From Bacteroidetes bacterium ADurb.Bin008 (GTDB lineage Bacteria > Bacteroidota > Bacteroidia > Bacteroidales > Tenuifilaceae): a stretch of DNA of 64,000 bases. Position 1 is the stretch's first letter, and every line of letters begins with the position of its first letter. The notes below the pieces were generated by a model. That model did no database searches. It was not told the origin of the DNA and saw nothing but the letters and a program-made list of their open reading frames with translations. Shown piece by piece: positions 5,229-17,667 of this stretch. The translations under genes and the position numbers were made by a program. Location of the stretch: contig MWFE01000041.1 of the NCBI GenBank assembly GCA_002071445.1, forward strand, positions 1 to 64,000. The letters run 5' to 3'.

Positions 5229-6590
5229 TTACCTATACCGTTTTAATAGTTGTCCTTGTCTATTTGTGATTAACCTGCCATTTTCCAGTGCTATCTCACC
5301 GTTGACTAACACAGTTTCAGGAATTCCAACGGTTTTAAAACCCTCATAAATATTGATGTCTGCATTGGAGTGGTGATGTGCTGCAAGTATTTTGCCCTTT
5401 ATGTCGGGATTCCAAATAACCAAATCGGCATCGGAGCCTACAGCAATCTCCCCTTTTTGAGGGTATAGTCCAAATAGTTTGGCCGGTTGGGTTGAGGTAA
5501 GATCAACCAATTGGGAAGGGGTAATTCGTTGCGCTATAACACCGTAGGTGTACAGTAATTCCAGCCGATGTTCTACTCCACCTGCGCCGCCGGGAATTTT
5601 TCTGAAATCATCCTGTCCATATTCTTTTTGCCTTTGGGTAAAAGGGCAGTGATCGGTGCCGACGGTTTGTACAATTCCGTGGTCTATGGCTCTCCAAAGC
5701 GCATCATTATCGTTTTGCTTGCGCAAAGGTGGGCTAAGCACGTATTTAGCTGTTGCTTCGAATGTGCCATTGTATGCGGTATCGTTCAAAAGTAGATACT
5801 GTGGACATGTTTCGGCATATACCCTTTGCCCCCTTTTCTGAGCCTTTTGAATATGTTCCAACGATTTAGCTGTTGATACGTGTACTATGTAAATTGGGCA
5901 TTTAGCCGTTTCGGACATTGCAATTATTTGCTCAACGGCATCGCTTTCCGTTTTCGGCGGACGTGAAAGGGCATGATACAACGGAGTTGTACAACCATAG
6001 TTGTACAATTGGTTGCGTAGAAACTCAATTTCGTCTCCCATTTCAGCATGTACTGTAGCCATTCCACCCGCTTTGGCCACTGCGTTCAGCACCTTTTTCA
6101 GGGCGTCATCGTTAAGCCCGATGGAAGATTTGTATGCCATGTAAACTTTGAAAGAGGTGAATCCCAGATTAACGCAATCATTTATCTCCTGTTCCGTGGT
6201 TGCATTCCACTCCACAGGGCTTACATGGAATGTATGGTCAATCAGCGAATTTTTAGACTCGTCAATTCTATGGTTTAAAGCTTCAACCAGCGATTGCCCC
6301 CGTTCTGGCGTAACAAAATCAATGAAAGTTGTGGTACCACCAAAAATTGCAGCTTTTGAACCGGTATAAAAATCGTCGGCCGAAAAGCCGGCCGGTGAGG
6401 GTAAATGAAAATGTACATGGGGATCGATACCTCCGGGAAAAATGAACCTGTTGCTTGCATCTATTATCCTGCGGGGGGTGGCATCAATATTTTTCTCAAT
6501 GGAAATAATTATCCCGTTACCGATGAGAATATCGGCTTTATGTGCGTGAGTTGATGTAACCACCGTTGCATTTTTAATGAGCAAGTCCAT
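5229..6590 (-). CDS. hydA: Dihydropyrimidinase / D-hydantoinase (HydA/HyuA)
   Basis: Cyclic amidohydrolase that opens hydantoin or dihydropyrimidine-type rings, one of the seven proteins of the anaerobic urate/purine breakdown set. The binuclear metal site is complete: HVH (H58, H60), the lysine expected to be carboxylated in FKVYM (K148), VHAE (H181), VHVS (H237) and GTDHCPF (D313). Length of 453 aa is normal (E. coli HyuA is 461). It is the last gene of a minus-strand run, 30 bp after the YgjV-GNAT gene and downstream of ssnA. Its stop lies 3 bp from the ygfK stop, so the two transcripts must overlap or terminate within each other. The start ATG at 6590 begins right at the metal-dependent hydrolase fold. 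Confidence 0.93.
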   Translation of the reverse strand: MDLLIKNATVVTSTHAHKADILIGNGIIISIEKNIDATPRRIIDASNRFIFPGGIDPHVHFHLPSPAGFSADDFYTGSKAAIFGGTTTFIDFVTPERGQSLVEALNHRIDESKNSLIDHTFHVSPVEWNATTEQEINDCVNLGFTSFKVYMAYKSSIGLNDDALKKVLNAVAKAGGMATVHAEMGDEIEFLRNQLYNYGCTTPLYHALSRPPKTESDAVEQIIAMSETAKCPIYIVHVSTAKSLEHIQKAQKRGQRVYAETCPQYLLLNDTAYNGTFEATAKYVLSPPLRKQNDNDALWRAIDHGIVQTVGTDHCPFTQRQKEYGQDDFRKIPGGAGGVEHRLELLYTYGVIAQRITPSQLVDLTSTQPAKLFGLYPQKGEIAVGSDADLVIWNPDIKGKILAAHHHSNADINIYEGFKTVGIPETVLVNGEIALENGRLITNRQGQLLKRYR

Positions 6591-6620
6591 TGGAAGCGTC
6601 GTTATTAAGTAGAAAAAGAG

Positions 6621-7247
6621 TTAAACGATTAAATTCTTTTGGAGCATCCCGTTTTCATTCTCGGTAAATCCAAGTTTTCTCAGATAGTTATCGTGCTTCT
6701 CGCTGCTTTTATGGGCAAGCGCCATGGTGAAACCACATTCTATAAATTTATGACTCAGGTAGTTGTAAACAAATTTTCCATTCTTAAAATCACGGTATTC
6801 GGGTATTACATAATCCAATCCCACTTTAAGGATATTGCCATCAACTCGATGGGCAAGGAAAACACCGGCTACAGCCATATTCCGCAGAATAAGGAAACTA
6901 ACGGTATTCAGTTCGGGCTTATAGTCAAAACCGGGAAAAAATTTTTGGATATCCCTGTGATGGAACGAGATGAAACGGATTAAATACCGATTGTCGTTTC
7001 GAACTTCCAGTATCTCGAAAACTTCTTTCTTTGAGAAGATGTCGTAGATGTAGTAAACATCGACACATACTATAAGGGAGTTAAGGATACCAACGGGAAA
7101 TGCCCCGATAATAAAACCGTAGGTTGCAAAAAGGCTGGCTCCCACCAGGTTGATTATCCTGAATTTAACAATTGAACTCATGGCCATGGAAATGGCTATG
7201 ATGACCGATGCGGTGTAGCCAATCCACTCAAGAACAGATATATTCAT
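6621..7247 (-). CDS. YgjV-like membrane domain fused to a GNAT-like domain
   Basis: The N-terminal 75 residues are strongly hydrophobic, with about three membrane segments (starting near 5, 30 and 50), and resemble the YgjV inner-membrane family. Residues 80-208 look like a GNAT acyltransferase fold: a central VDGNILKVGLDYVIPEYRD strand-helix region and a C-terminal YLRKLGFTENENGM, which is typical of the GNAT end (a Y-x-K-x-GF motif). The usual acetyl-CoA loop (Q/R-x-x-G-x-G/A) is degenerate here (RDFKNGK), so activity is uncertain. It sits between ssnA (65 bp upstream) and hydA (30 bp downstream) on the same strand, so it is probably co-transcribed with them. Its function is unknown; a role in purine use is only suggested by position. 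Confidence 0.7.
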   Translation of the reverse strand: MNISVLEWIGYTASVIIAISMAMSSIVKFRIINLVGASLFATYGFIIGAFPVGILNSLIVCVDVYYIYDIFSKKEVFEILEVRNDNRYLIRFISFHHRDIQKFFPGFDYKPELNTVSFLILRNMAVAGVFLAHRVDGNILKVGLDYVIPEYRDFKNGKFVYNYLSHKFIECGFTMALAHKSSEKHDNYLRKLGFTENENGMLQKNLIV

Positions 7248-7312
7248 ACAAATGGCAATTTTTATTATCTATAATTCCTTTACTTACAATGGAGTATAAA
7301 ACACACAATGGC

Positions 7313-8593
7313 CTATAATCTTTTCATCAAATTCCACAGGCGTTTAGCCTGTTCACGCGATTGTGACATGATTTCATCTTCGTCCACGGTAGTCATTTTT
7401 TGGTCTAAGACAATAGCCTTGCCATTGGAAATAACATGTTGAACATGGCTTGCATTTATGCCAAAGATGAAATGTCCGTAAAAGTTATCCCGATTGATTT
7501 CAGTGGGTGGGTTGTAGTTAAGCACTACCAGGTTATTGGCACCATCGCCTCGAAAGCCGTTGTCGGCAAGGTAATGATGGACATTTCTGAAACGCCTGTA
7601 GGCCGTAGCCGGGCTGATTGGATCAAATCGCTGCCCAACAAAGTAAGCCGCTTTGGCACTTTGCAGCATATCGCTGTGCATACCATCGGTTCCTAACATT
7701 ATGTTGTTTCCTAGGCTTTTCCCGCTGAAAAAGCCCACATTGTTATTCAGATTGCTTTCGGTATTCTGAACAATCCTGCAGGGGGAGCTGTGAAGTATTC
7801 TACGTTCTTCATCATCAAGGTGAAGGCAGTGTACCAGTATGGTTTTAGCAGAATTGGTAATACCCGCTTCAGAAAATCTATGTATAACACGCTTTTTATA
7901 CGTTGACTGGCAATGGTTTTGATCGTGCATATCCTCGGCTACATGCACATGGATACCGGAATTGAAACGTTGCATTAAATCCGTGGCCTGTTTCAACGTT
8001 TCATCACCAACGGTGAATGAGGCGTGAAGGCCAACCAATCCCTGATGGGTTTTCAGATATTCCTCGGTAGCCGTTAAGCCCTGACGGGCTTTGTCCATGC
8101 CATCGCGATCGGTTATCTCGTAGCACAGCAGGTGGCTAAGTCCAACCCTTTCGAAAGCCTTTGCCATTACCTCCAGCGACCAATGAATGAATGAGGGCGA
8201 TGCATGGTGGTCGATGATAAAAGTAGAACCAGCTTTGGCGCAACTTATGGCAGTGACCAGGGCGCTCAACTCCACAGTATCCCTATCGAGGCACTTATCC
8301 AGCGTCCACCATACATACTTTAAAATTTCGTAGAAATTTTCGGGCTGTTTCCGGGGGGCAGGCATTCCTCTGGCCATGGCCGAATAAGCGTGGTGGTGTC
8401 CAACGGCAAATGCTTTGGTAACCAATTTCCCATGGCAATCAATTTGTTGGTAATCAGCGATACTGCTTAATGTTTTCAAATCGTCCACCAGGTGGATGGA
8501 CTTATTGATTCCCTCATCAACAACGATGTTTGTATGGAAAAACTCCAGGGATTCCCAATCGACATATGTGGCATTACGTAGTAGAACAGGCAT
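7313..8593 (-). CDS. ssnA: SsnA-type amidohydrolase
   Basis: Member of the TRZ/ATZ (guanine deaminase / chlorohydrolase-like) amidohydrolases, named SsnA in the purine/selenium-linked clusters. It is expected to hydrolyse or deaminate a ring-derived amidine intermediate in the cytoplasm. Metal ligands are visible: HHH (66-68), HVHVAED (H215, H217), H255 in VHCLHLDDEE and D303 in LGTDGMHSD. At 426 aa it is close to E. coli SsnA (442). It is the first gene of the ssnA - YgjV/GNAT - hydA run; 156 bp upstream lies the end of the SpoIIE gene with its own terminator, so ssnA should have its own promoter. Assignment as SsnA rests on motif pattern plus neighbours. Confidence 0.9.
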   Translation of the reverse strand: MPVLLRNATYVDWESLEFFHTNIVVDEGINKSIHLVDDLKTLSSIADYQQIDCHGKLVTKAFAVGHHHAYSAMARGMPAPRKQPENFYEILKYVWWTLDKCLDRDTVELSALVTAISCAKAGSTFIIDHHASPSFIHWSLEVMAKAFERVGLSHLLCYEITDRDGMDKARQGLTATEEYLKTHQGLVGLHASFTVGDETLKQATDLMQRFNSGIHVHVAEDMHDQNHCQSTYKKRVIHRFSEAGITNSAKTILVHCLHLDDEERRILHSSPCRIVQNTESNLNNNVGFFSGKSLGNNIMLGTDGMHSDMLQSAKAAYFVGQRFDPISPATAYRRFRNVHHYLADNGFRGDGANNLVVLNYNPPTEINRDNFYGHFIFGINASHVQHVISNGKAIVLDQKMTTVDEDEIMSQSREQAKRLWNLMKRL

Positions 8594-8661
8594 CTCTATT
8601 TCTTATGGTTATCATTCAGCGTGGAACAATGATCTGTGTTTTTTGCAGAAGTAAAAGTAGG

Positions 8662-8692
8662 ATAAAAATGCCAATCCATGAATTTTGGCATT
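8662..8692 (-). terminator. Intrinsic terminator after the SpoIIE phosphatase gene
   Basis: An 8-bp perfect stem (AATGCCAA, 8667-8674, with TTGGCATT, 8685-8692) encloses a 10-nt loop. Read on the minus strand it is followed by a T-run (ATTTTTATCC). It sits between the SpoIIE stop at 8750 and ssnA, separating the two transcription units. Confidence 0.7.
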
Positions 8693-8749
8693 ATAAAACC
8701 TGACTAAAGTTATAATGCTTGCAACGTAGAAATATTTATCAGATTAAGT

Positions 8750-11110
8750 CTAAATGCGGATTCCCATTACCAGTACGTCGTCAACCTGAAAATGGTCTCC
8801 TTTCCACTCCTCAAAGGTGTTGGCAAGAATCTCGTGCTGTTTTTCGCCTTCCAAATGGTATATTGACGACAACAGGTTCCTGAAACGCGATATGTTGAAC
8901 TTGTTTCCATCGTGGCTGAATTGATCGGAGTACCCATCGGAGAACAGGTAAATCATATCGCCCGGTTCAACGGTAATGGAATGGTTGAAGAAGGGATCGG
9001 TTTTAATATGCTGAGAGACAGGCATTCTGTCTTCTCTAACCACAATGGGGTTGGGCGAGCCGTTGCCATTGTTTTTAAAGATATAAATAGGCAGATAAGC
9101 CCCGGAATACTGGAGTTCCATTGTTTTAGTGTTAAGCGCACACATGGCCATATCCATACCGTCGTAACTTTCAGAACACCCTTCCACTATTATATCGTTT
9201 TTGTATTGTCTCAGTGAATGGATGATTCTATCCCTCATTTCTTCAAGGACTGCGCTTGATTTTGTGATGTACTCCTTATTCAGAATATCGTTAAGGAATG
9301 CCATTCCCAGCATACTCATAATCCCTCCGGGAACCCCATGGCCTGTACAATCGGCAACGGCAAAAAGTTTGAATCCCCTGATTTCGTTTACCCAGTAAAA
9401 ATCGCCACTGATTATGTTTTTAGGCCTGTGGAATACAAATGCATCGCTAAAAATGTGTTTAATGTCCTCAATCGGGGGGAGTAATGCTCTTTGTATTCTT
9501 TCGGCGTAGATTATCGAGTCGGTTATCCCCTTTTTCTGGTGGAATAATTCATCCCTTTGCTTTTCAATGATCTCCGTTCGTTCCTGGAGTTCCCATGCCA
9601 GATTGGCAAGTGAGTTTCTATGCTTTTTAATTTCCTCAAGATTTCTTGAGATCACCTCATTTTTCTGTAATAGCTCTTCGTTGAGTAGAAAAAGATTCTC
9701 ACGTTGTGTCTCAATTTCTTCGTTTTGCGATTTAATCTCCTCATTCTGAGTTTTTATCTCTTCGTTCTGCTCTTGTAGCAGAAAGCTGTGTTTCCTCTTT
9801 TGATTGTACCCATACAGTGTAGCCATAAGGGTAAGAAAGATTAGTAATGAAGAAAAGATAAGGTATCGCCTGACCATGAGGTTTCGTTTACCCTGCTCTT
9901 CCATCAGTAAATCTTTCTTTTCCTGCTCAACCCGTTGTTTTTGAATTAGCTTTTCAACTTCGTAGCTATTCTCAAATTGTACTATTAAACGGGTATTATT
10001 TATACTAAAAATGCTATCGTGTACTTTTTTGCTCTTGTTAACCCATTGAAGTGCAGTGCGGTAATCGCCCTTTTGCTCGTATATGTTGGCAATAATATCT
10101 GCCGATTGGTACTGGAGGTAGAGCATATTGAATTGTTGGGCAAACTCCATTGATTTTGAGGCGTATAGCAACGCCTTGTCCAGAATATTCATGCACGAGA
10201 AGACCTTTGCCGCTCCGTAATACGATACCATTAAATCTTTTTGATAACCATTCCTGCTTTGGATACCTATGGACTTATGAAAATAGTCCAACGATTCCTT
10301 GTATCTTCCCTGTAGGCATGAAAGGCTTCCCATACCGGAGTATGTATTGGCAATCCCTATACTATCGTTATAGCTGGAAAATCTTTTAAGTGCTTGTTGG
10401 TACTCGAAAGTTGCTTCGCTATACTTCTCTTCCTGAGCAAGTATATCGCCCATCGCTTTATGTATTCGGGGTATTAAAAAGGTGTTCTGAATATTCCTTG
10501 CAAAGCCCTGAGCCTGATTGAGAAGATATTGTGAGTTGTCAAATTCTTCTTGAATAAGAAATACCTGGCTGATGGAATACAAAAGATTCGATTGATTGAG
10601 ACGATCGTTGTTTTGTTCGGCTATCTTTAATCCGTTGTATAAATTCTTCAGTCCATTTGAAAAATAGCCCATATCGGTATATACCGTCCCAATACTGTTG
10701 AGCAGCGATGCTTGCAGCATGGAATTACCACTTTGCTCTTCAATCTGTAGCGATGCCTGATAGCTGATTAGTGCGCAGTTTAGCTCCCCTTTAATATGGT
10801 ATATGGCTCCGTTGGTAGAATAGATATATGAAAGAAGGATCAAATCATTATGCTCGTGTGCATACTCTTCCAAAATCAATGATTTTTCGAGAGCTTTGTT
10901 CCATTCATTATGTAAAATAAGTAATTCAAGGGAATCAAGTGAGGTTTTGATGTAGGTCGAATCTGTTCCCTGTATGTGATAGTTCAGCTGAAAGGGGCGA
11001 TAAAAACCGTTTGCTGTACTTCCAGCAATTGCGCTAGTTATTGATAATATGAAAAAAAAGCAGAGGCTTACTTTTTTTATATTAAACATACAAATTCTAA
11101 AAAAAGGCAA
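8750..11110 (-). CDS. TPR repeat, membrane-anchored SpoIIE/PP2C-type phosphatase
   Basis: Predicted signalling Ser/Thr phosphatase of the Bacteroidota type. Parts in order: signal peptide (the better start is the internal ATG at residue 8, giving MFNIKKVSLCFFF); a periplasmic array of tetratricopeptide repeats (about 45-380); one transmembrane helix (about 415-435); a cytoplasmic coiled coil with a striking QNEEIK repeat (about 443-540); and a C-terminal SpoIIE domain (about 550-786). PP2C metal-site residues are seen in SGDFYW (D570), ADCTGHGVPGG (D587) and SDGYSDQF (D729). It lies between xdh and ssnA, 118 bp from xdh, and ends in its own terminator. Such proteins usually act in partner-switching circuits against SiaB-like kinases; two such proteins lie 4 kb away on the other strand. 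The pairing is an inference. Confidence 0.88.
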   Translation of the reverse strand: MPFFRICMFNIKKVSLCFFFILSITSAIAGSTANGFYRPFQLNYHIQGTDSTYIKTSLDSLELLILHNEWNKALEKSLILEEYAHEHNDLILLSYIYSTNGAIYHIKGELNCALISYQASLQIEEQSGNSMLQASLLNSIGTVYTDMGYFSNGLKNLYNGLKIAEQNNDRLNQSNLLYSISQVFLIQEEFDNSQYLLNQAQGFARNIQNTFLIPRIHKAMGDILAQEEKYSEATFEYQQALKRFSSYNDSIGIANTYSGMGSLSCLQGRYKESLDYFHKSIGIQSRNGYQKDLMVSYYGAAKVFSCMNILDKALLYASKSMEFAQQFNMLYLQYQSADIIANIYEQKGDYRTALQWVNKSKKVHDSIFSINNTRLIVQFENSYEVEKLIQKQRVEQEKKDLLMEEQGKRNLMVRRYLIFSSLLIFLTLMATLYGYNQKRKHSFLLQEQNEEIKTQNEEIKSQNEEIETQRENLFLLNEELLQKNEVISRNLEEIKKHRNSLANLAWELQERTEIIEKQRDELFHQKKGITDSIIYAERIQRALLPPIEDIKHIFSDAFVFHRPKNIISGDFYWVNEIRGFKLFAVADCTGHGVPGGIMSMLGMAFLNDILNKEYITKSSAVLEEMRDRIIHSLRQYKNDIIVEGCSESYDGMDMAMCALNTKTMELQYSGAYLPIYIFKNNGNGSPNPIVVREDRMPVSQHIKTDPFFNHSITVEPGDMIYLFSDGYSDQFSHDGNKFNISRFRNLLSSIYHLEGEKQHEILANTFEEWKGDHFQVDDVLVMGIRI

Positions 11111-11227
11111 TGGTTGAATTTGATTGCGGCAAACCTAATGCAATATTACTGGAAAAGCAATACTTTTTGTTAGAAAATTAACAACAATTTTTAAAAAAAA
11201 TGTTAGCATGATTTACCATGAACGCCT

Positions 11228-13801
11228 TCACTGCTTTGCCTCATTACGCATTTCGACAGGTTTGAGGGGTAATTGCCATCTTTTAATGCCATCGTAAGCG
11301 TAAAAAGCACAGGCCACAGCCGCGGCTGTGGGTACAAGTCCGATTTCGCCAATGCCTTTGGCTCCGTAAGGGCCAACCGGATCCGGTACTTCAACGCCAC
11401 GAACAATGATTTTCGGAGTTTGGTGAGCACGTAGAATACCAAGATCCTTCATTTTATCGCTAATTAGGTACCCATCATTCATGGGAAGGTTTTCCGAAAG
11501 GGCATAACCTAAGCCCATATGTACTCCCCCCTCGATCTGACCCTCGAATAGCATGGGGTTCATTATCTTGCCTGCGTCGTGTGCAGCGATTATCCTGTCA
11601 ATTTCCCCTTTGTCATTCAAAATGCACAGCTGAGTGGCGTAGCCGTATGAGTAATGGGTTTTTTGATCGGCGCTTGCATCTCCCGGTTTGGTGGTCCAGT
11701 CACAAACGTATTGCCCTCGATACGATTTGCCAGACAGTTGCTTGATGGTCTGTCGTTTTAAATCCTCTTTCAATGCCTTGCAGGCATTGATTATGGCCAG
11801 ACCTAGGAGTGCGGTGGCACGTGATGAGGTGGTCATTCCCGTATCGATATCTGCCTCAGTGTCCACAACCACTTTGACAATGGAGGGGGCAATTCCGGTT
11901 TCTTCACACAGCGTTTGTATGGCCATGTTGTGAATTCCCTGACCCATTTCGGTCCATCCGTGTTTTATAACCACCTCTTTTTCGGAAACTATATCGATTA
12001 TCACTTTCGACTCGTCGATCATCCCATTGCCCACTCCCGAGTTTTTGATGGCACAGGCCAATCCGGCATATTTGGCTTTGTAGAAGTCATCTTTCACTGC
12101 CTCTAAACAAGCGCGTATGCCTACACCATAGACTTTTTGCCCGGTGGAGGTGGAAAGTCCATCAACAAGTGCATTGTCGTAACGGAATTGCCATCTGTCA
12201 AATCCCCCCTGATGGCATATGTCGTCTATGCAACTTTCCATGGCGAATGCCACCTGATTTGCTCCAAAGCCTCGCATTGCCCCACAGGGCAAGTTGTTGG
12301 TATAAACCGTTTTGGCCTCAATATCCACATTGGGAACAAAGTAGCCTGCCGTTGCATGGCCGGCCACCCTTTCCATCACTTTGGTTCCCACTGAAGCGTA
12401 TGCGCCCGTATCGCCTACTGCCATTAGTTTCAACCCCATCAGTTTGCCATTGGCATCGGCTGCCAACTCCATATCCATATAAACGGGATGGCGCTTGGGA
12501 TGCATGCGTATGGATTCGCTACGTGTAAGGGTAATTTTGACGGGTTTGTCAAGAAGGAAGGCGAATAGGGCTGCATGTCCCTGAACGGTGAGATCTTCCT
12601 TGCCACCAAACCCCCCTCCGTTGGGGACTAAAATCACCCGCACTTTATGAATGGGAAGGTTCAGAATTGCAGCAATCTGCTTTCTATCAACGTAAATTCC
12701 CTGACCTTGACTATAAACCACAACACCTCCATCGCCATCGGGATGAGCAACGGCCGATTCCTTTTCGAGGAATGCATGTTCAATGCGTTGGGTTTCGTAA
12801 CGCCCTTTCGAAATGTACTTCGCTTCTGAGAATGCCTTGTGCACATTGCCAATGGCAAAACGGGTTGTGCTAAAATGGTTTGGTTTGTCGGGGTGAACCC
12901 TTTCACCATCAATGGCCTCAAAAACATCGGTAACGGGCTTGAGCACATCGTATTGTACTTCAATTAATTCTATTGCCTTGCGGGCAATGGCCTCGCTTTC
13001 GGCTACCACGCCGGCCACCACATCGCCTATATAGGTAGTAGTCTTTCCTTCGGCAATCATAACCGATTGATCGTTGTACACCAAACCGATAAGCCGTTCC
13101 CCGGGAATATCGGCAGCTGTGAATATTCTATGGACACCTTTCAACTCTTCAGCTTTCGATGTATCGATTTGCTTAACTATTGCACGTGGATATTGGCTGA
13201 ATTTTAGTGCTCCATAGAGCATGCCTTCCATAAAAATGTCATCGGTAAATTTTCTTTCACCAATAGCAGTGCCATAGGCATCGTATTTAAGGTGGTCAAC
13301 TCCAACTTTTCCGTTGGTCTGTCGTAGTTCCAAAGTTTTTTTTGCCTTGAGGGCTTCGGCAGATGAAAGAATGGATTCTTCAATTTTTTTATAACCCGTG
13401 CATCGGCAAATATGAGGTTTTATGGCCTGCCTAACCTCATCTATGGTGGGACTGGGATTATTTTCAAGTAATACCTTAGTTCTACTAATGAAACCCGGAA
13501 TACAAAAGCCACACTGCACTGCCCCGCCATTGACAAACGATTTGGCAATGGTATCCTTCACGTATTCGGGAAAACCTTCCATGGTGAAAACGTTGGCACC
13601 TTCCAGCTTACCCATTCGGGTGGTGCAGGCCAGCTTGGCCTGTCCATTGATCTCCACCGTGCAAGCACCGCATACTCCTTGCCCTGAGCATCCATCCTTA
13701 GTTGCAGTAAGATGTAGTTCGTTGCGCAGGTAGTCCAGCAGGGTGCGCTGCGGATCACCATCAAATGCGGTTTTTTGACCGTTTAGTAAAAAATTTATCA
13801 T
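11228..13801 (-). CDS. xdh: Molybdenum hydroxylase with N-terminal 2Fe-2S domains (XdhD/XdhAC-like)
   Basis: Xanthine dehydrogenase-family enzyme in which the small iron-sulfur subunit is fused to the molybdopterin subunit. Residues 1-150 carry both 2Fe-2S sites (C38, C44, C47, C59; then C97, C100, C132, C134). Residues about 165-857 form the molybdopterin-binding part, including GGGFGGKEDLT and, near the C-terminus, the GxGE signature KGIGEIGL with the expected catalytic Glu at 819. No FAD subunit (XdhB/YgfM type) is encoded in this window, so electrons must leave by another partner; YgfK is a candidate. It starts 12 bp after the ygeX stop, so ygeX-xdh is an operon. In related clusters this enzyme is called selenium-dependent; nothing in the protein sequence itself proves selenium use. 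Its exact purine substrate cannot be read from sequence. Confidence 0.9.
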   Translation of the reverse strand: MINFLLNGQKTAFDGDPQRTLLDYLRNELHLTATKDGCSGQGVCGACTVEINGQAKLACTTRMGKLEGANVFTMEGFPEYVKDTIAKSFVNGGAVQCGFCIPGFISRTKVLLENNPSPTIDEVRQAIKPHICRCTGYKKIEESILSSAEALKAKKTLELRQTNGKVGVDHLKYDAYGTAIGERKFTDDIFMEGMLYGALKFSQYPRAIVKQIDTSKAEELKGVHRIFTAADIPGERLIGLVYNDQSVMIAEGKTTTYIGDVVAGVVAESEAIARKAIELIEVQYDVLKPVTDVFEAIDGERVHPDKPNHFSTTRFAIGNVHKAFSEAKYISKGRYETQRIEHAFLEKESAVAHPDGDGGVVVYSQGQGIYVDRKQIAAILNLPIHKVRVILVPNGGGFGGKEDLTVQGHAALFAFLLDKPVKITLTRSESIRMHPKRHPVYMDMELAADANGKLMGLKLMAVGDTGAYASVGTKVMERVAGHATAGYFVPNVDIEAKTVYTNNLPCGAMRGFGANQVAFAMESCIDDICHQGGFDRWQFRYDNALVDGLSTSTGQKVYGVGIRACLEAVKDDFYKAKYAGLACAIKNSGVGNGMIDESKVIIDIVSEKEVVIKHGWTEMGQGIHNMAIQTLCEETGIAPSIVKVVVDTEADIDTGMTTSSRATALLGLAIINACKALKEDLKRQTIKQLSGKSYRGQYVCDWTTKPGDASADQKTHYSYGYATQLCILNDKGEIDRIIAAHDAGKIMNPMLFEGQIEGGVHMGLGYALSENLPMNDGYLISDKMKDLGILRAHQTPKIIVRGVEVPDPVGPYGAKGIGEIGLVPTAAAVACAFYAYDGIKRWQLPLKPVEMRNEAKQ

Positions 13802-13813
13802 GGCGAAATAGTT

Positions 13814-14938
13814 TTACTTATGCCGAATTCCGACTACTTCCTCAAATACTTTTTTATCCGTATCGCCCTCGGTGCTGATGAGCAGAATGTTGGTCTGATC
13901 GTTAATGTTTAATGCCTGCTTCACGGCTTCCAACTCTTTTTCCCTGACAATGGCCATCAACCCTGCCAGCCCTGCCGATCCCGATTCGCCCGATATAACC
14001 CTTTGATCGCCCTGTACCGGGTAGTACAATTCCCGCATGGCTTCACGGGCAAAGGCATCGTCGATTTTTAAAGAGACGTCAACGCCGCTTTTTAGCAAAT
14101 CCCATGCCCCCAGTGATGGGGTACCACAGTTCAATCCTGCCATGATGGTGGTAGCATTTCCTTTTGAGGTGGTAACTTTGCCCTCGACGAATGATGAGAA
14201 TATGGCATCGGCTTCCAAGGGTTCAACGATTACAATTTTTGGCCGCATACCTCCGTACCGGTTAAGGTAGTAAAATGCTGCAGCAGCAGCAAAACTTCCC
14301 ACGCCCGCCTGTACAAATACCACATCAATTTTTGCCTTGGGCAGAGTGTTGATGGTATCCTCCATCTCCACGAAAAGACTCATGTATCCGGCAACAATAT
14401 TGGCGGGTATTTCTTCATATCCCTGCCATGCCATATCCTGCACCAGTTGCCATCCGTTTGCATTGGACATACTTTCGGCGCGGGCACAGGCGTCGTCATA
14501 ATTTCCGTTAACCTTTTCCACGCGGGCGCCATATGCCTCAATGGCTTTCATGCGGTTTTCGGTGGTATCGTGGGGTACGTAGATAACCGATTTCTTCCCA
14601 AAGAGCGACGCCCCCCAGGCGACTGCCTTACCATGATTACCATCGGTTGCCGTACAAAAGGTTTGCAAGTGAGGATTCGTGGCTAAAAGTTGGTCGATGG
14701 CAAACACTGCTCCCAGAGCCTTGAATGCGTTGAGCCCAAAACGGTGCGATTCATCTTTCAGGTAAATATTACCCACACCATACTTCCTTGCCAGTCCCGG
14801 AAGAGAAACCAGGGGCGTTGATTTATACCCTTTGAGGGTTTTGTGAAATGCCAAAGCATTCTTCCTGCTCAATATTTCGGTAGTGGTATTCTGCACGATT
14901 TTGTTATCGGGAGAATTGATAAAATAGGATGCAATCAT
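13814..14938 (-). CDS. ygeX: Diaminopropionate ammonia-lyase (YgeX)
   Basis: PLP enzyme of fold type II that converts 2,3-diaminopropionate to pyruvate and two ammonia. In the anaerobic urate pathway this is the step that yields pyruvate. The Schiff-base lysine is K73 in HRFGLNAFKALG, followed by the TDGNHGKAVAWGA phosphate/substrate loop; a glycine-rich QAGVGSFAAAAAF loop follows. Length is 374 aa versus 398 for E. coli YgeX, with a slightly shorter C-terminus. It is the first gene of the ygeX-xdh operon; the start ATG at 14938 faces a 315-bp divergent control region. Confidence 0.93.
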   Translation of the reverse strand: MIASYFINSPDNKIVQNTTTEILSRKNALAFHKTLKGYKSTPLVSLPGLARKYGVGNIYLKDESHRFGLNAFKALGAVFAIDQLLATNPHLQTFCTATDGNHGKAVAWGASLFGKKSVIYVPHDTTENRMKAIEAYGARVEKVNGNYDDACARAESMSNANGWQLVQDMAWQGYEEIPANIVAGYMSLFVEMEDTINTLPKAKIDVVFVQAGVGSFAAAAAFYYLNRYGGMRPKIVIVEPLEADAIFSSFVEGKVTTSKGNATTIMAGLNCGTPSLGAWDLLKSGVDVSLKIDDAFAREAMRELYYPVQGDQRVISGESGSAGLAGLMAIVREKELEAVKQALNINDQTNILLISTEGDTDKKVFEEVVGIRHK

Positions 14939-15253
14939 GATATCATTTAAAATGAATTGGATGGTAATATGTAAGAAAATAAAAAAATGGCAATGATTAA
15001 AAATCGAAATATACTAAATCTTATTTAATGATTGTCCCGAACCGTTTGATTTGACTATTGTAGGCAGCAAAAGCGAAAAACGTAACTTGTTAAAATGTAA
15101 AAATATAATTCGATTTAGGAGAAAAAATGTTTCTCTGAATTTAATGATGAGGTTGAATAAATTTTGAATGTTATAGTTGATTTCTTTTTAAAAACAATAC
15201 TTTTATTGTATAGAAAATCTTTATATTTACTTTTCAGACCATTAGTATTCTCT
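14939..15253. promoter_or_regulatory. Divergent control region between ygeX and the first SiaB-like gene
   Basis: A 315-bp AT-rich region with no gene. On the minus strand TATATTTC (15006-15013) is one mismatch from the Bacteroidota TAnnTTTG box and could serve ygeX. On the plus strand TATATTTA (15222-15229) is also one mismatch away, about 25 bp before the chosen ATG of the SiaB-like gene. Both are weak calls. Confidence 0.35.
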
Positions 15254-16354
15254 ATGAATATCGACTTGTTAAATATTTTATTCAAAAAACTTGAACATGA
15301 TGATTTAAGCTATGCTTATACGGGTTCATTTACTGATGCTCTTGCCATTAGGATGATTGATATAGCCCGCCATAACATAGAATCGTGGGGAGAAGGTGCG
15401 GGATTAATGAACAGGGTAAGTTTTTTGATGGGCGAATGCTATCAAAATATCGTTAGGCACGGCATCTCGGCGAGCGATATAAAAAATCTGCATGAAAAGT
15501 CGGAGCTAATGTTTCTCAGGGTTATTGGCGATAGCTATTATATCACCTCAGCAAATCTTGTAGAAAACAGTTCGATAGATTTAATTACATCTAAACTGGA
15601 TAGGATTAACAGCCTATCGCAGGATGAGTTAAAAGAGTTGCAGCAGAGTATAATGCTTAATGGGCAACTTAATGCCAAGGGTGGTGCCGGTTTGGGGATT
15701 ATTTTGATGGCTAGAAAAACAAGGCAAAAAATTGCCTACAGGTTCGAAAAACTCAGCGATAACATATCGCTCTTTTACCTTCACACGCTGCTTAGGACAG
15801 ATGACAAAAGTCCCGATAGCAGCCTTATGAAAATCACCATAGATGACATTATTGCGTTTCATGACATCATAGCAAAAGAGGGATTACTGTTAATGCATAA
15901 GGGTGATTTTTCGCAGGAGACGTTTTTGCCTGTTATTAAAATGATAGAGGGGAACATGAAAGAAAAATTCGAACATACATTTATCAGCACGAAACTTTAC
16001 CACCTCATTGTCGAAATTTTACAAAATATTTCCAGGCATGGGAGTAAAGAACGTAACTTAGATCAAGGCATTTTCTTGATGGGCAGCAAGGATAACAATT
16101 TCATTATCGGGTCGTCCAATTATATTGAAAGAGGGGAGGCAGATTCGCTTCTAAGCCGATTGAATGAATTGAAAACATTATCGAAGAAAGAGTTGGATAT
16201 GCTTTACAGGGATAACCTTCGACTCGTGATAGAAAGGGAAGATCAAAACGTAGGACTGGGGTTAATAGATATTTTCAGATATTCTAAATCTGTTGATTAT
16301 AGGCTGGATAGAGAGTTGGATAAGTATTTGTTTTCTATGGTTGCCATTGTTTAG
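15254..16354 (+). CDS. Tandem double SiaB-like (DUF6272) GHKL-type protein, copy 1
   Basis: A 366-aa protein built of two copies of the SiaB/DUF6272 domain, a small histidine-kinase-like ATPase fold which in Pseudomonas SiaB is a protein kinase. The N-half has ECYQNIVRH (61-69, N-box-like) and AKGGAGLGIILMAR (141-154, G-box-like). The C-half repeats the plan with EILQNISRH (254-262) and QNVGLGLIDI. Each half carries a LDRINSLSQDEL or LNELKTLSKKEL type segment between the boxes. An upstream TTG at 15164 keeps the frame open, but ATG at 15254 is chosen because it aligns residue for residue with the start of the second copy. It is cytoplasmic, with no signal peptide. It is followed 215 bp later by a paralogue on the same strand. 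Target and partner are unknown; no SiaC-like (DUF1987) gene is in the window. Confidence 0.8.
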   Translation: MNIDLLNILFKKLEHDDLSYAYTGSFTDALAIRMIDIARHNIESWGEGAGLMNRVSFLMGECYQNIVRHGISASDIKNLHEKSELMFLRVIGDSYYITSANLVENSSIDLITSKLDRINSLSQDELKELQQSIMLNGQLNAKGGAGLGIILMARKTRQKIAYRFEKLSDNISLFYLHTLLRTDDKSPDSSLMKITIDDIIAFHDIIAKEGLLLMHKGDFSQETFLPVIKMIEGNMKEKFEHTFISTKLYHLIVEILQNISRHGSKERNLDQGIFLMGSKDNNFIIGSSNYIERGEADSLLSRLNELKTLSKKELDMLYRDNLRLVIEREDQNVGLGLIDIFRYSKSVDYRLDRELDKYLFSMVAIV

Positions 16355-16569
16355 TTTTTTTATTTTTCAATAAAAAATTTTAACAACCACGATGGAAATA
16401 TTGGTATAGTAAGGCATATGTAAACCCGAATTAACCTTGAATGTATAGGAATCGTGTAGGCGAAGCAAGTTAATGGGTCATTAGTAAAGTGATAAAATTG
16501 ACATTACAATAAATGCTTGGTACAGTATTTTATGTTAACTTGCACTACAAATAAAAATTTTTGTTAGTA

Positions 16570-17667
16570 ATGGACATTGGCACTTCAGTTCAACTTTTCG
16601 AAGAACTTCAGGGTGACGAACTTAGTTTTGCCTACGCAGGATCTTTTTCTGATTCTATTACCCATAGAATAGTCGAATTAACGCAGCATAATATTGATTC
16701 AACCGGAAGCTTCAGCAAATTGAAGAATAAAATAAGCTTCTTAATGGTTGAATGCTATCAAAATGTGGTGCGGCATACAGATGCAAAACGGGGTGAGCCT
16801 GAACCAAGAAGCCAGCTCAATGCATTTTTTGTGAGGAGCAACGGAAGTAACTTTTTTATTACCTCTGTCAACTATATCGATAATTACGAAATTCCAAACG
16901 TGAAGGAAAAGCTTGATAGGGTGAACAGCTTGTCGCCTGAAGAGCTTAGGCTATTGCAAAAACAGGTGTTGTCCAAAGGCCAGCTATCTGATAAGGGTGG
17001 TGCAGGCCTTGGAATCATTGAAATGGCCCGAAAATCGGGACAAAAAATAGACTACGCTTTTGATTTGCTTGACGATAAGTACTCTCTTTTCTACATGCAT
17101 CTAAAGCTTAAGCTCGAAGATGAGGCAGGTATTGTTCCTTCTCAGGATATTACCATTGACAAAATGAAAGAACTTTATACTAAGCTTCATTCAAACAGAA
17201 TCCTGATCATGCACAAGGGCGATTTTTCGGAGCAAACCACCCTTCCAATTATTCAGATGATTGACAACTTTAAAAAACACGCCGATTTACAGGTAACAAA
17301 AAAAAGGTTGTTCCACATCTCAGTTGAAATGTTGCAGAATATTTCACAGCATGCCTACAAGAGAAAAGGCATAAACGAGGCTATTTTTATCCTAGGGAAA
17401 ACAAACGATGACTATATAATTAGTACTTCAAATTTTGTTGAAAAGACGAAAATAGATAAGCTTGAGAACCAACTGCGGGAGTTAAAGGGCTTGTCCAATA
17501 CAGATTTGAACCTACTTTTTAAATCAAAGTTCAGGTCGTTAAATGAGGAAAATGTCCATGGAATAGGCATTGGATTGATTGATATCTCCCGAAAGAGCCA
17601 GTTTTTTGACTATTCTGTCAGCAACTCATCTGATACGCCTATGTTTTCGTTTTTCGTTGTAGTATAA
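16570..17667 (+). CDS. Tandem double SiaB-like (DUF6272) GHKL-type protein, copy 2
   Basis: A 365-aa paralogue of the preceding gene, collinear with it from the first residue. N-half motifs: ECYQNVVRH (61-69) and DKGGAGLGIIEMAR (141-154), the latter nearly the family consensus. C-half motifs: EMLQNISQH (253-261) and HGIGIGLIDI (330-339). Both halves share a central MHKGDFS segment (214-220) at the junction, seen in both copies. The ATG at 16570 is preferred over the upstream TTG at 16561. About 200 bp separate it from copy 1, so it may have its own promoter. The pair resembles the kinase side of a SiaA/SiaB-type partner switch, with the TPR-SpoIIE phosphatase at 8.7-11.1 kb as a possible opponent; that link is inference. 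Confidence 0.8.
   Translation: MDIGTSVQLFEELQGDELSFAYAGSFSDSITHRIVELTQHNIDSTGSFSKLKNKISFLMVECYQNVVRHTDAKRGEPEPRSQLNAFFVRSNGSNFFITSVNYIDNYEIPNVKEKLDRVNSLSPEELRLLQKQVLSKGQLSDKGGAGLGIIEMARKSGQKIDYAFDLLDDKYSLFYMHLKLKLEDEAGIVPSQDITIDKMKELYTKLHSNRILIMHKGDFSEQTTLPIIQMIDNFKKHADLQVTKKRLFHISVEMLQNISQHAYKRKGINEAIFILGKTNDDYIISTSNFVEKTKIDKLENQLRELKGLSNTDLNLLFKSKFRSLNEENVHGIGIGLIDISRKSQFFDYSVSNSSDTPMFSFFVVV

Follow-up and report, generated by a model that had tools for sequence, protein, structure and literature searches.

Tandem SiaB-family proteins with unequal halves, widespread in the Bacteroidales, and a candidate SiaC partner coupled to a histidine kinase

In the window, that is the whole stretch of 64,000 nucleotides that was analysed, two adjacent and intact open reading frames on the + strand encode proteins, P0001 and P0002, each of which is made of two GHKL/SiaB domains in one chain, as shown by sequence and by a structure model of P0002. 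This double-SiaB architecture is old and widespread and, apparently, undescribed. We consider P0001 and P0002 to be, rather probably, SiaB-type GHKL protein kinases with domains in tandem that belong to a partner-switching system, in which the N-half would phosphorylate SiaC and the C-half would serve mainly for dimerization, docking or regulation. Sia designates a module of the phosphatase SiaA, the kinase SiaB, SiaC and the diguanylate cyclase SiaD (PMC7278518, PMC7647112); the name "Siderophore-independent SiaABCD", given in a sequence-only reading of this DNA, was a misnomer. What is new here is an old, order-wide class of tandem SiaB proteins with unequal halves, together with a concrete partner hypothesis. 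The features of the window are as follows.

8750 to 11110, - strand: TPR-SpoIIE phosphatase with a SiaA-like C-terminus; SpoIIE PF07228; NF038263 (SiaA) 151.5 bits over residues 487-786
15254 to 16354, + strand: P0001, double-SiaB protein of 366 aa; NF038262 matches twice (191 bits in all), PF19788 twice
15254 to 15820, + strand: P0001 N-half, SiaB domain with ECYQN and the full KGGAGLG lid; NF038262 98.9 bits
15821 to 16354, + strand: P0001 C-half, SiaB domain with EILQN and a lid reduced to QNVGLG; NF038262 101.2 bits
16570 to 17667, + strand: P0002, double-SiaB protein of 365 aa; NF038262 matches twice (216.6 bits in all); AlphaFold2 model
16570 to 17130, + strand: P0002 N-half, SiaB domain with ECYQN and the full KGGAGLG lid; NF038262 119.3 bits
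17131 to 17667, + strand: P0002 C-half, SiaB domain with EMLQN and an HGIGIG lid; NF038262 105.8 bits; Z 15.6, rmsd 2.2 to SiaB 6kko_A

P0001 starts with ATG, and an alternative TTG start at 15164 would give a protein of 396 aa. When each half was scored separately, all four exceeded both the gathering score of DUF6272 (PF19788; 93.3, 82.0, 108.3 and 93.1 bits against 26.6) and the cut-off of 85 bits of the SiaB_fam_kinase model NF038262 (98.9, 101.2, 119.3 and 105.8 bits). None of them reached the cut-off of 225 bits of the SiaB equivalog NF038264 (biofilm regulation), for which we obtained 75.5 and 85.0 bits. By these scores, therefore, the halves are members of the SiaB family and not SiaB itself. 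All four are under purifying selection, with dN/dS values of 0.04-0.15 in comparison to a genome of the same genus (0.04-0.11 for the two N-halves).

The AlphaFold2 model of P0002, built from an alignment of 85 rows, shows GHKL folds in both halves (pLDDT 89.6, pTM 0.89), and its high scores over both halves point to a defined arrangement of the two. The structure that it resembles most is P. aeruginosa SiaB from the complex with SiaC (6kko): the C-half superimposes on 6kko_A with a Z-score of 15.6 and an rmsd of 2.2 over 163 residues (TM-score 0.85 by target length), and structure comparison of the N-half with GHKL kinases gave Z-scores of 4-5.7. The next matches after SiaB are the anti-sigma factor kinases SpoIIAB and RsbW (Z 7.5-9.4), which share the GHKL kinase fold and the partner-switch logic with a STAS-like target; however, these are single-domain proteins with a sequence identity of 5-15%, and we found no sigma factor evidence here. 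Chance or misannotation as the source of the double-domain reading is ruled out by the domain scores and the structure model. Indeed, the claim of two fused SiaB-like domains had been staked on the C-terminal halves; both of them score as DUF6272 and that of P0002 has the GHKL fold in the model, and the claim survived.

Compared with SiaB of P. aeruginosa (PDB 6kko; NF038264, NF038262), P0001 and P0002 are of the same family and share the GHKL fold, the Glu-x-x-Gln-Asn N-box, the G1 Asn, the GxGxG lid in the N-half and an architecture that is linked to SiaC. The P. aeruginosa protein acts on T68 of SiaC and forms a dimer (PMC7278518, PMC7647112), whereas P0001 and P0002 carry two domains per chain with unequal lids, have no siaA, siaC or siaD gene directly beside them and belong to a genome in which no GGDEF protein was found.

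The distribution of such genes was assessed by a single-protein search for full-length double open reading frames over 295 genomes of the order (Bacteroidales), followed by the fetching of these and others. The rarity that had been supposed for the architecture did not hold: 124 distinct double-SiaB genes were gathered, from at least 69 of the 295 genomes and 30 families, plus genomes G001 and G362. Of 395 genomes sampled from the whole phylum, G362, which belongs to the same class, is the sole one besides the source genome to have a full double; both draws are samples and not a census. Within the family (Tenuifilaceae), 8 of 27 genomes carry doubles. The double-SiaB architecture is thus widespread in the order and scarce outside it. 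The statement that no double-domain SiaB had been characterised agrees with the literature that we searched, in which we found none; searches on double GHKL proteins or on SiaC in Bacteroidota returned nothing relevant. We also observed expansions of the SiaB family in single genomes, with 13 matches in G036 and 17 in G042.

In a tree of the halves, the N-halves form one clade (support 0.995) and all C-halves lie apart from them, the only singles inside being halves of the window pair itself that locus ends had truncated. It follows that the fusion, judged from this tree, is ancient and predates the spread across the order. A more careful tree of 83 rows again recovered the N-halves as one clade (100/99) and the C-halves as one or two lineages, so that a single old origin can be read firmly for the N-half clade only. 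The proposal that the fusion came before the gene duplication is supported, and the fusion is in fact far older, as the single N-half clade spans 30 families. Against an origin by internal duplication alone stands the grouping of the N-halves nearer to ordinary single SiaB than to the C-halves, although the support is moderate (90/86). The P0001/P0002 pair itself is, as its sequence shows, a later duplication inside the family. The motif MHKGDFS is not the junction of the two domains for which it was previously taken but belongs to the early part of the C-domain, and the HKGDFS within it is a common feature of double-SiaB proteins.

We then considered the genes that accompany the doubles. In the SiaABCD module, siaC lies beside the kinase gene; it is absent at the window pair but present for most doubles. 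Indeed, 78 of the 124 lie directly upstream of SiaC, 11 are C-terminally fused to it, 33 are without it and 2 are truncated; SiaC is therefore downstream or fused in 89 of the 122 scorable cases. The gap between the stop of the double and the start of the SiaC match is usually about 20-30 bases. By Pfam, the fusion at L124 comprises two DUF6272 domains and one SiaC domain (PF09345), and its predicted structure has a pLDDT of 86.6 and a pTM of 0.72. Of 33 single SiaB genes, 31 directly precede SiaC; among 105 linked SiaC domains, 104 carry T or S as acceptor residue. The gene linkage, which single SiaB genes share, and the fusions are good evidence for an action of the doubles on SiaC like that of single SiaB. 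In a few cases, two to five SiaC genes lie downstream of one double; at L112 (7938-10195), a double-SiaB gene precedes a row of five SiaC genes, which suggests that one kinase has several substrates.

The window's contig (C41) contains no SiaC, hence none beside P0001 and P0002. A candidate is found on contig C11 of the source genome (L249, 142-531), with Ser as acceptor residue; its gene overlaps by 4 bases that of a TPR-HisKA-HATPase histidine kinase (the two spanning 142-2279). The same operonic SiaC-histidine kinase cassette is present in G000 (the source genome), G001 and G008, and in all 8 of the family genomes with doubles. In four genomes of genus g7, the SiaC and TPR histidine kinase genes lie right beside the double-SiaB gene. 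Although the TPR histidine kinase occurs widely in the family, SiaC adjoins it only in genomes with a double SiaB: for 16 kinase orthologues from genomes without doubles, we detected no SiaC within the fetched flanks, some of which are cut by contig ends. Since the 8 cassette kinases group together in a midpoint-rooted tree, as an apparent single clade, the 8/8 match of doubles and cassette may reflect one evolutionary event followed by joint retention. From this co-occurrence, the SiaC of contig C11 would be the likeliest substrate of the window pair. The SiaC family (DUF1987, PF09345) is the substrate family, adjoins or is fused to most doubles and conserves the Ser/Thr acceptor; here, it has 16 copies in the genome, and the candidate partner is coupled to a TPR histidine kinase and not to a diguanylate cyclase. 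To our knowledge, a histidine kinase as target of a DUF1987/SiaC protein would be new. It has been proposed that DUF1987 proteins modulate adjacent proteins (PMC8457831).

The source genome contains 5 single SiaB, 2 double SiaB, 16 SiaC and 21 SpoIIE proteins. In contrast to the SiaABCD module, whose output is the GGDEF protein SiaD, no GGDEF protein was matched in this genome (97.5% complete), the control search being positive in 8 genomes. Therefore SiaD cannot be the output of its Sia-type proteins, and the output must be something else; this hints at a phosphorylation switch independent of c-di-GMP. One of the 21 SpoIIE proteins, encoded at 8750-11110, scores below the SiaA equivalog cut-off (151.5 bits against 700 for NF038263) and is a possible opposing phosphatase, its sole link to the pair being the distance of 4 kb. 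It lies in the midst of a purine/selenium-type catabolic cluster (5229-14938, - strand), with genes for a dihydropyrimidinase, an SsnA-like aminohydrolase (below cut-off), a selenium-dependent xanthine dehydrogenase (over cut-off) and a diaminopropionate ammonia-lyase; in G008, the double pair is also near a selenium-dependent xanthine dehydrogenase gene. Elsewhere in the source genome (contig C20, L118, 2884-10429), a GAF/PAS-SpoIIE phosphatase, a single SiaB, a SiaC and a TerB-ABC transporter protein are encoded in a row, which by gene content is a SiaABC-like module with an adjoining transporter.

The two halves of the doubles differ in their ATP lids. Each half had been said to keep an N-box and a glycine-rich G-box; the N-box is indeed present in all four halves of the window pair and the KGGAGLG lid is complete in both N-halves, but the C-half lids are eroded, with the first glycine lost in P0001 and GxGxG kept in P0002. 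Over all doubles, the three lid glycines occur together in 120/124 N-halves, as in 54/59 single SiaB proteins, and in only 25/124 C-halves. Moreover, the C-half diverges faster than the N-half in 1850 of 2000 pairs. The N-box Glu corresponds by alignment to E61 of SiaB, which is predicted to be catalytic (PMC7647112). A division of labour between N-half and C-half would be the simplest reading of the lid asymmetry. Loss of lid glycines does not prove that the C-half is inactive, the N-box Glu being kept in 123 of 124.

We weighed whether both halves could be active kinases, that is, a covalent SiaB dimer with two working sites, in which the lid change of the C-half only tunes nucleotide affinity. 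The N-box Glu, its Asn and the G1 Asn are retained together in 123/124 C-halves, which are under purifying selection in the window pair, and the P0002 C-half keeps GxGxG and matches SiaB with a Z-score of 15.6. However, 99/124 C-halves are without the full lid glycines, unlike N-halves and single SiaB, and the lid is altered in all 11 SiaC-fused doubles, which makes two working sites rather unlikely. The earlier suggestion of a heteromeric switch, in which P0001 and P0002 would each regulate the other's activity, is improbable in our opinion. G008 has an orthologue of each of the two proteins (that of P0001 at L086, 8861-9961), the tandem pair is retained in the same order in G000, G001 and G008, and doubles also came to lie in tandem, independently, in two further lineages (L095; L157/L161/L175); yet five g7 genomes have a P0002-type double only. 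The majority of doubles in other genomes occur singly; a partner double is thus not required, and the plausibility of such a switch is modest. There is equally little chance that the doubles are catalytically weak proteins that bind or sequester SiaC, the window pair having lost its own. The 33 doubles without an adjoining SiaC, including the window pair, are consistent with such a role, but the ATP-site motifs are kept in 120/124 N-halves and the low dN/dS of the window's N-halves also argues against it.

According to the tandem-kinase reading that we prefer, the two halves would together replace, in a single chain, the homodimer that SiaB forms. The N-half, which has the complete ATP lid, would phosphorylate the conserved Ser/Thr of a SiaC protein, which for the window pair would be that of contig C11, and the C-half would serve mainly as a fixed partner in the dimer, or for docking or regulation. 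In its unphosphorylated form, SiaC would bind the TPR histidine kinase and tune it; the double-SiaB protein would turn this action off, and a phosphatase of the SpoIIE group would restore it. More tentatively, the doubles may form a class, found across the order, of asymmetric tandem Ser/Thr kinases of the GHKL type, with a catalytic half and a lid-degenerate regulatory half; in this family, their SiaC substrate possibly controls the TPR sensor histidine kinase and so connects partner switching with two-component signalling in bacteria without c-di-GMP.

The system from which Sia partner switching is known has c-di-GMP as its end point, and here an expansion of its kinase and substrate families is seen in a GGDEF-free genome. 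The SiaC-histidine kinase cassette names a specific and testable output. In addition, the double-SiaB protein, as a natural covalent dimer with unequal halves, would be useful for asking what role each subunit plays in a GHKL kinase dimer.
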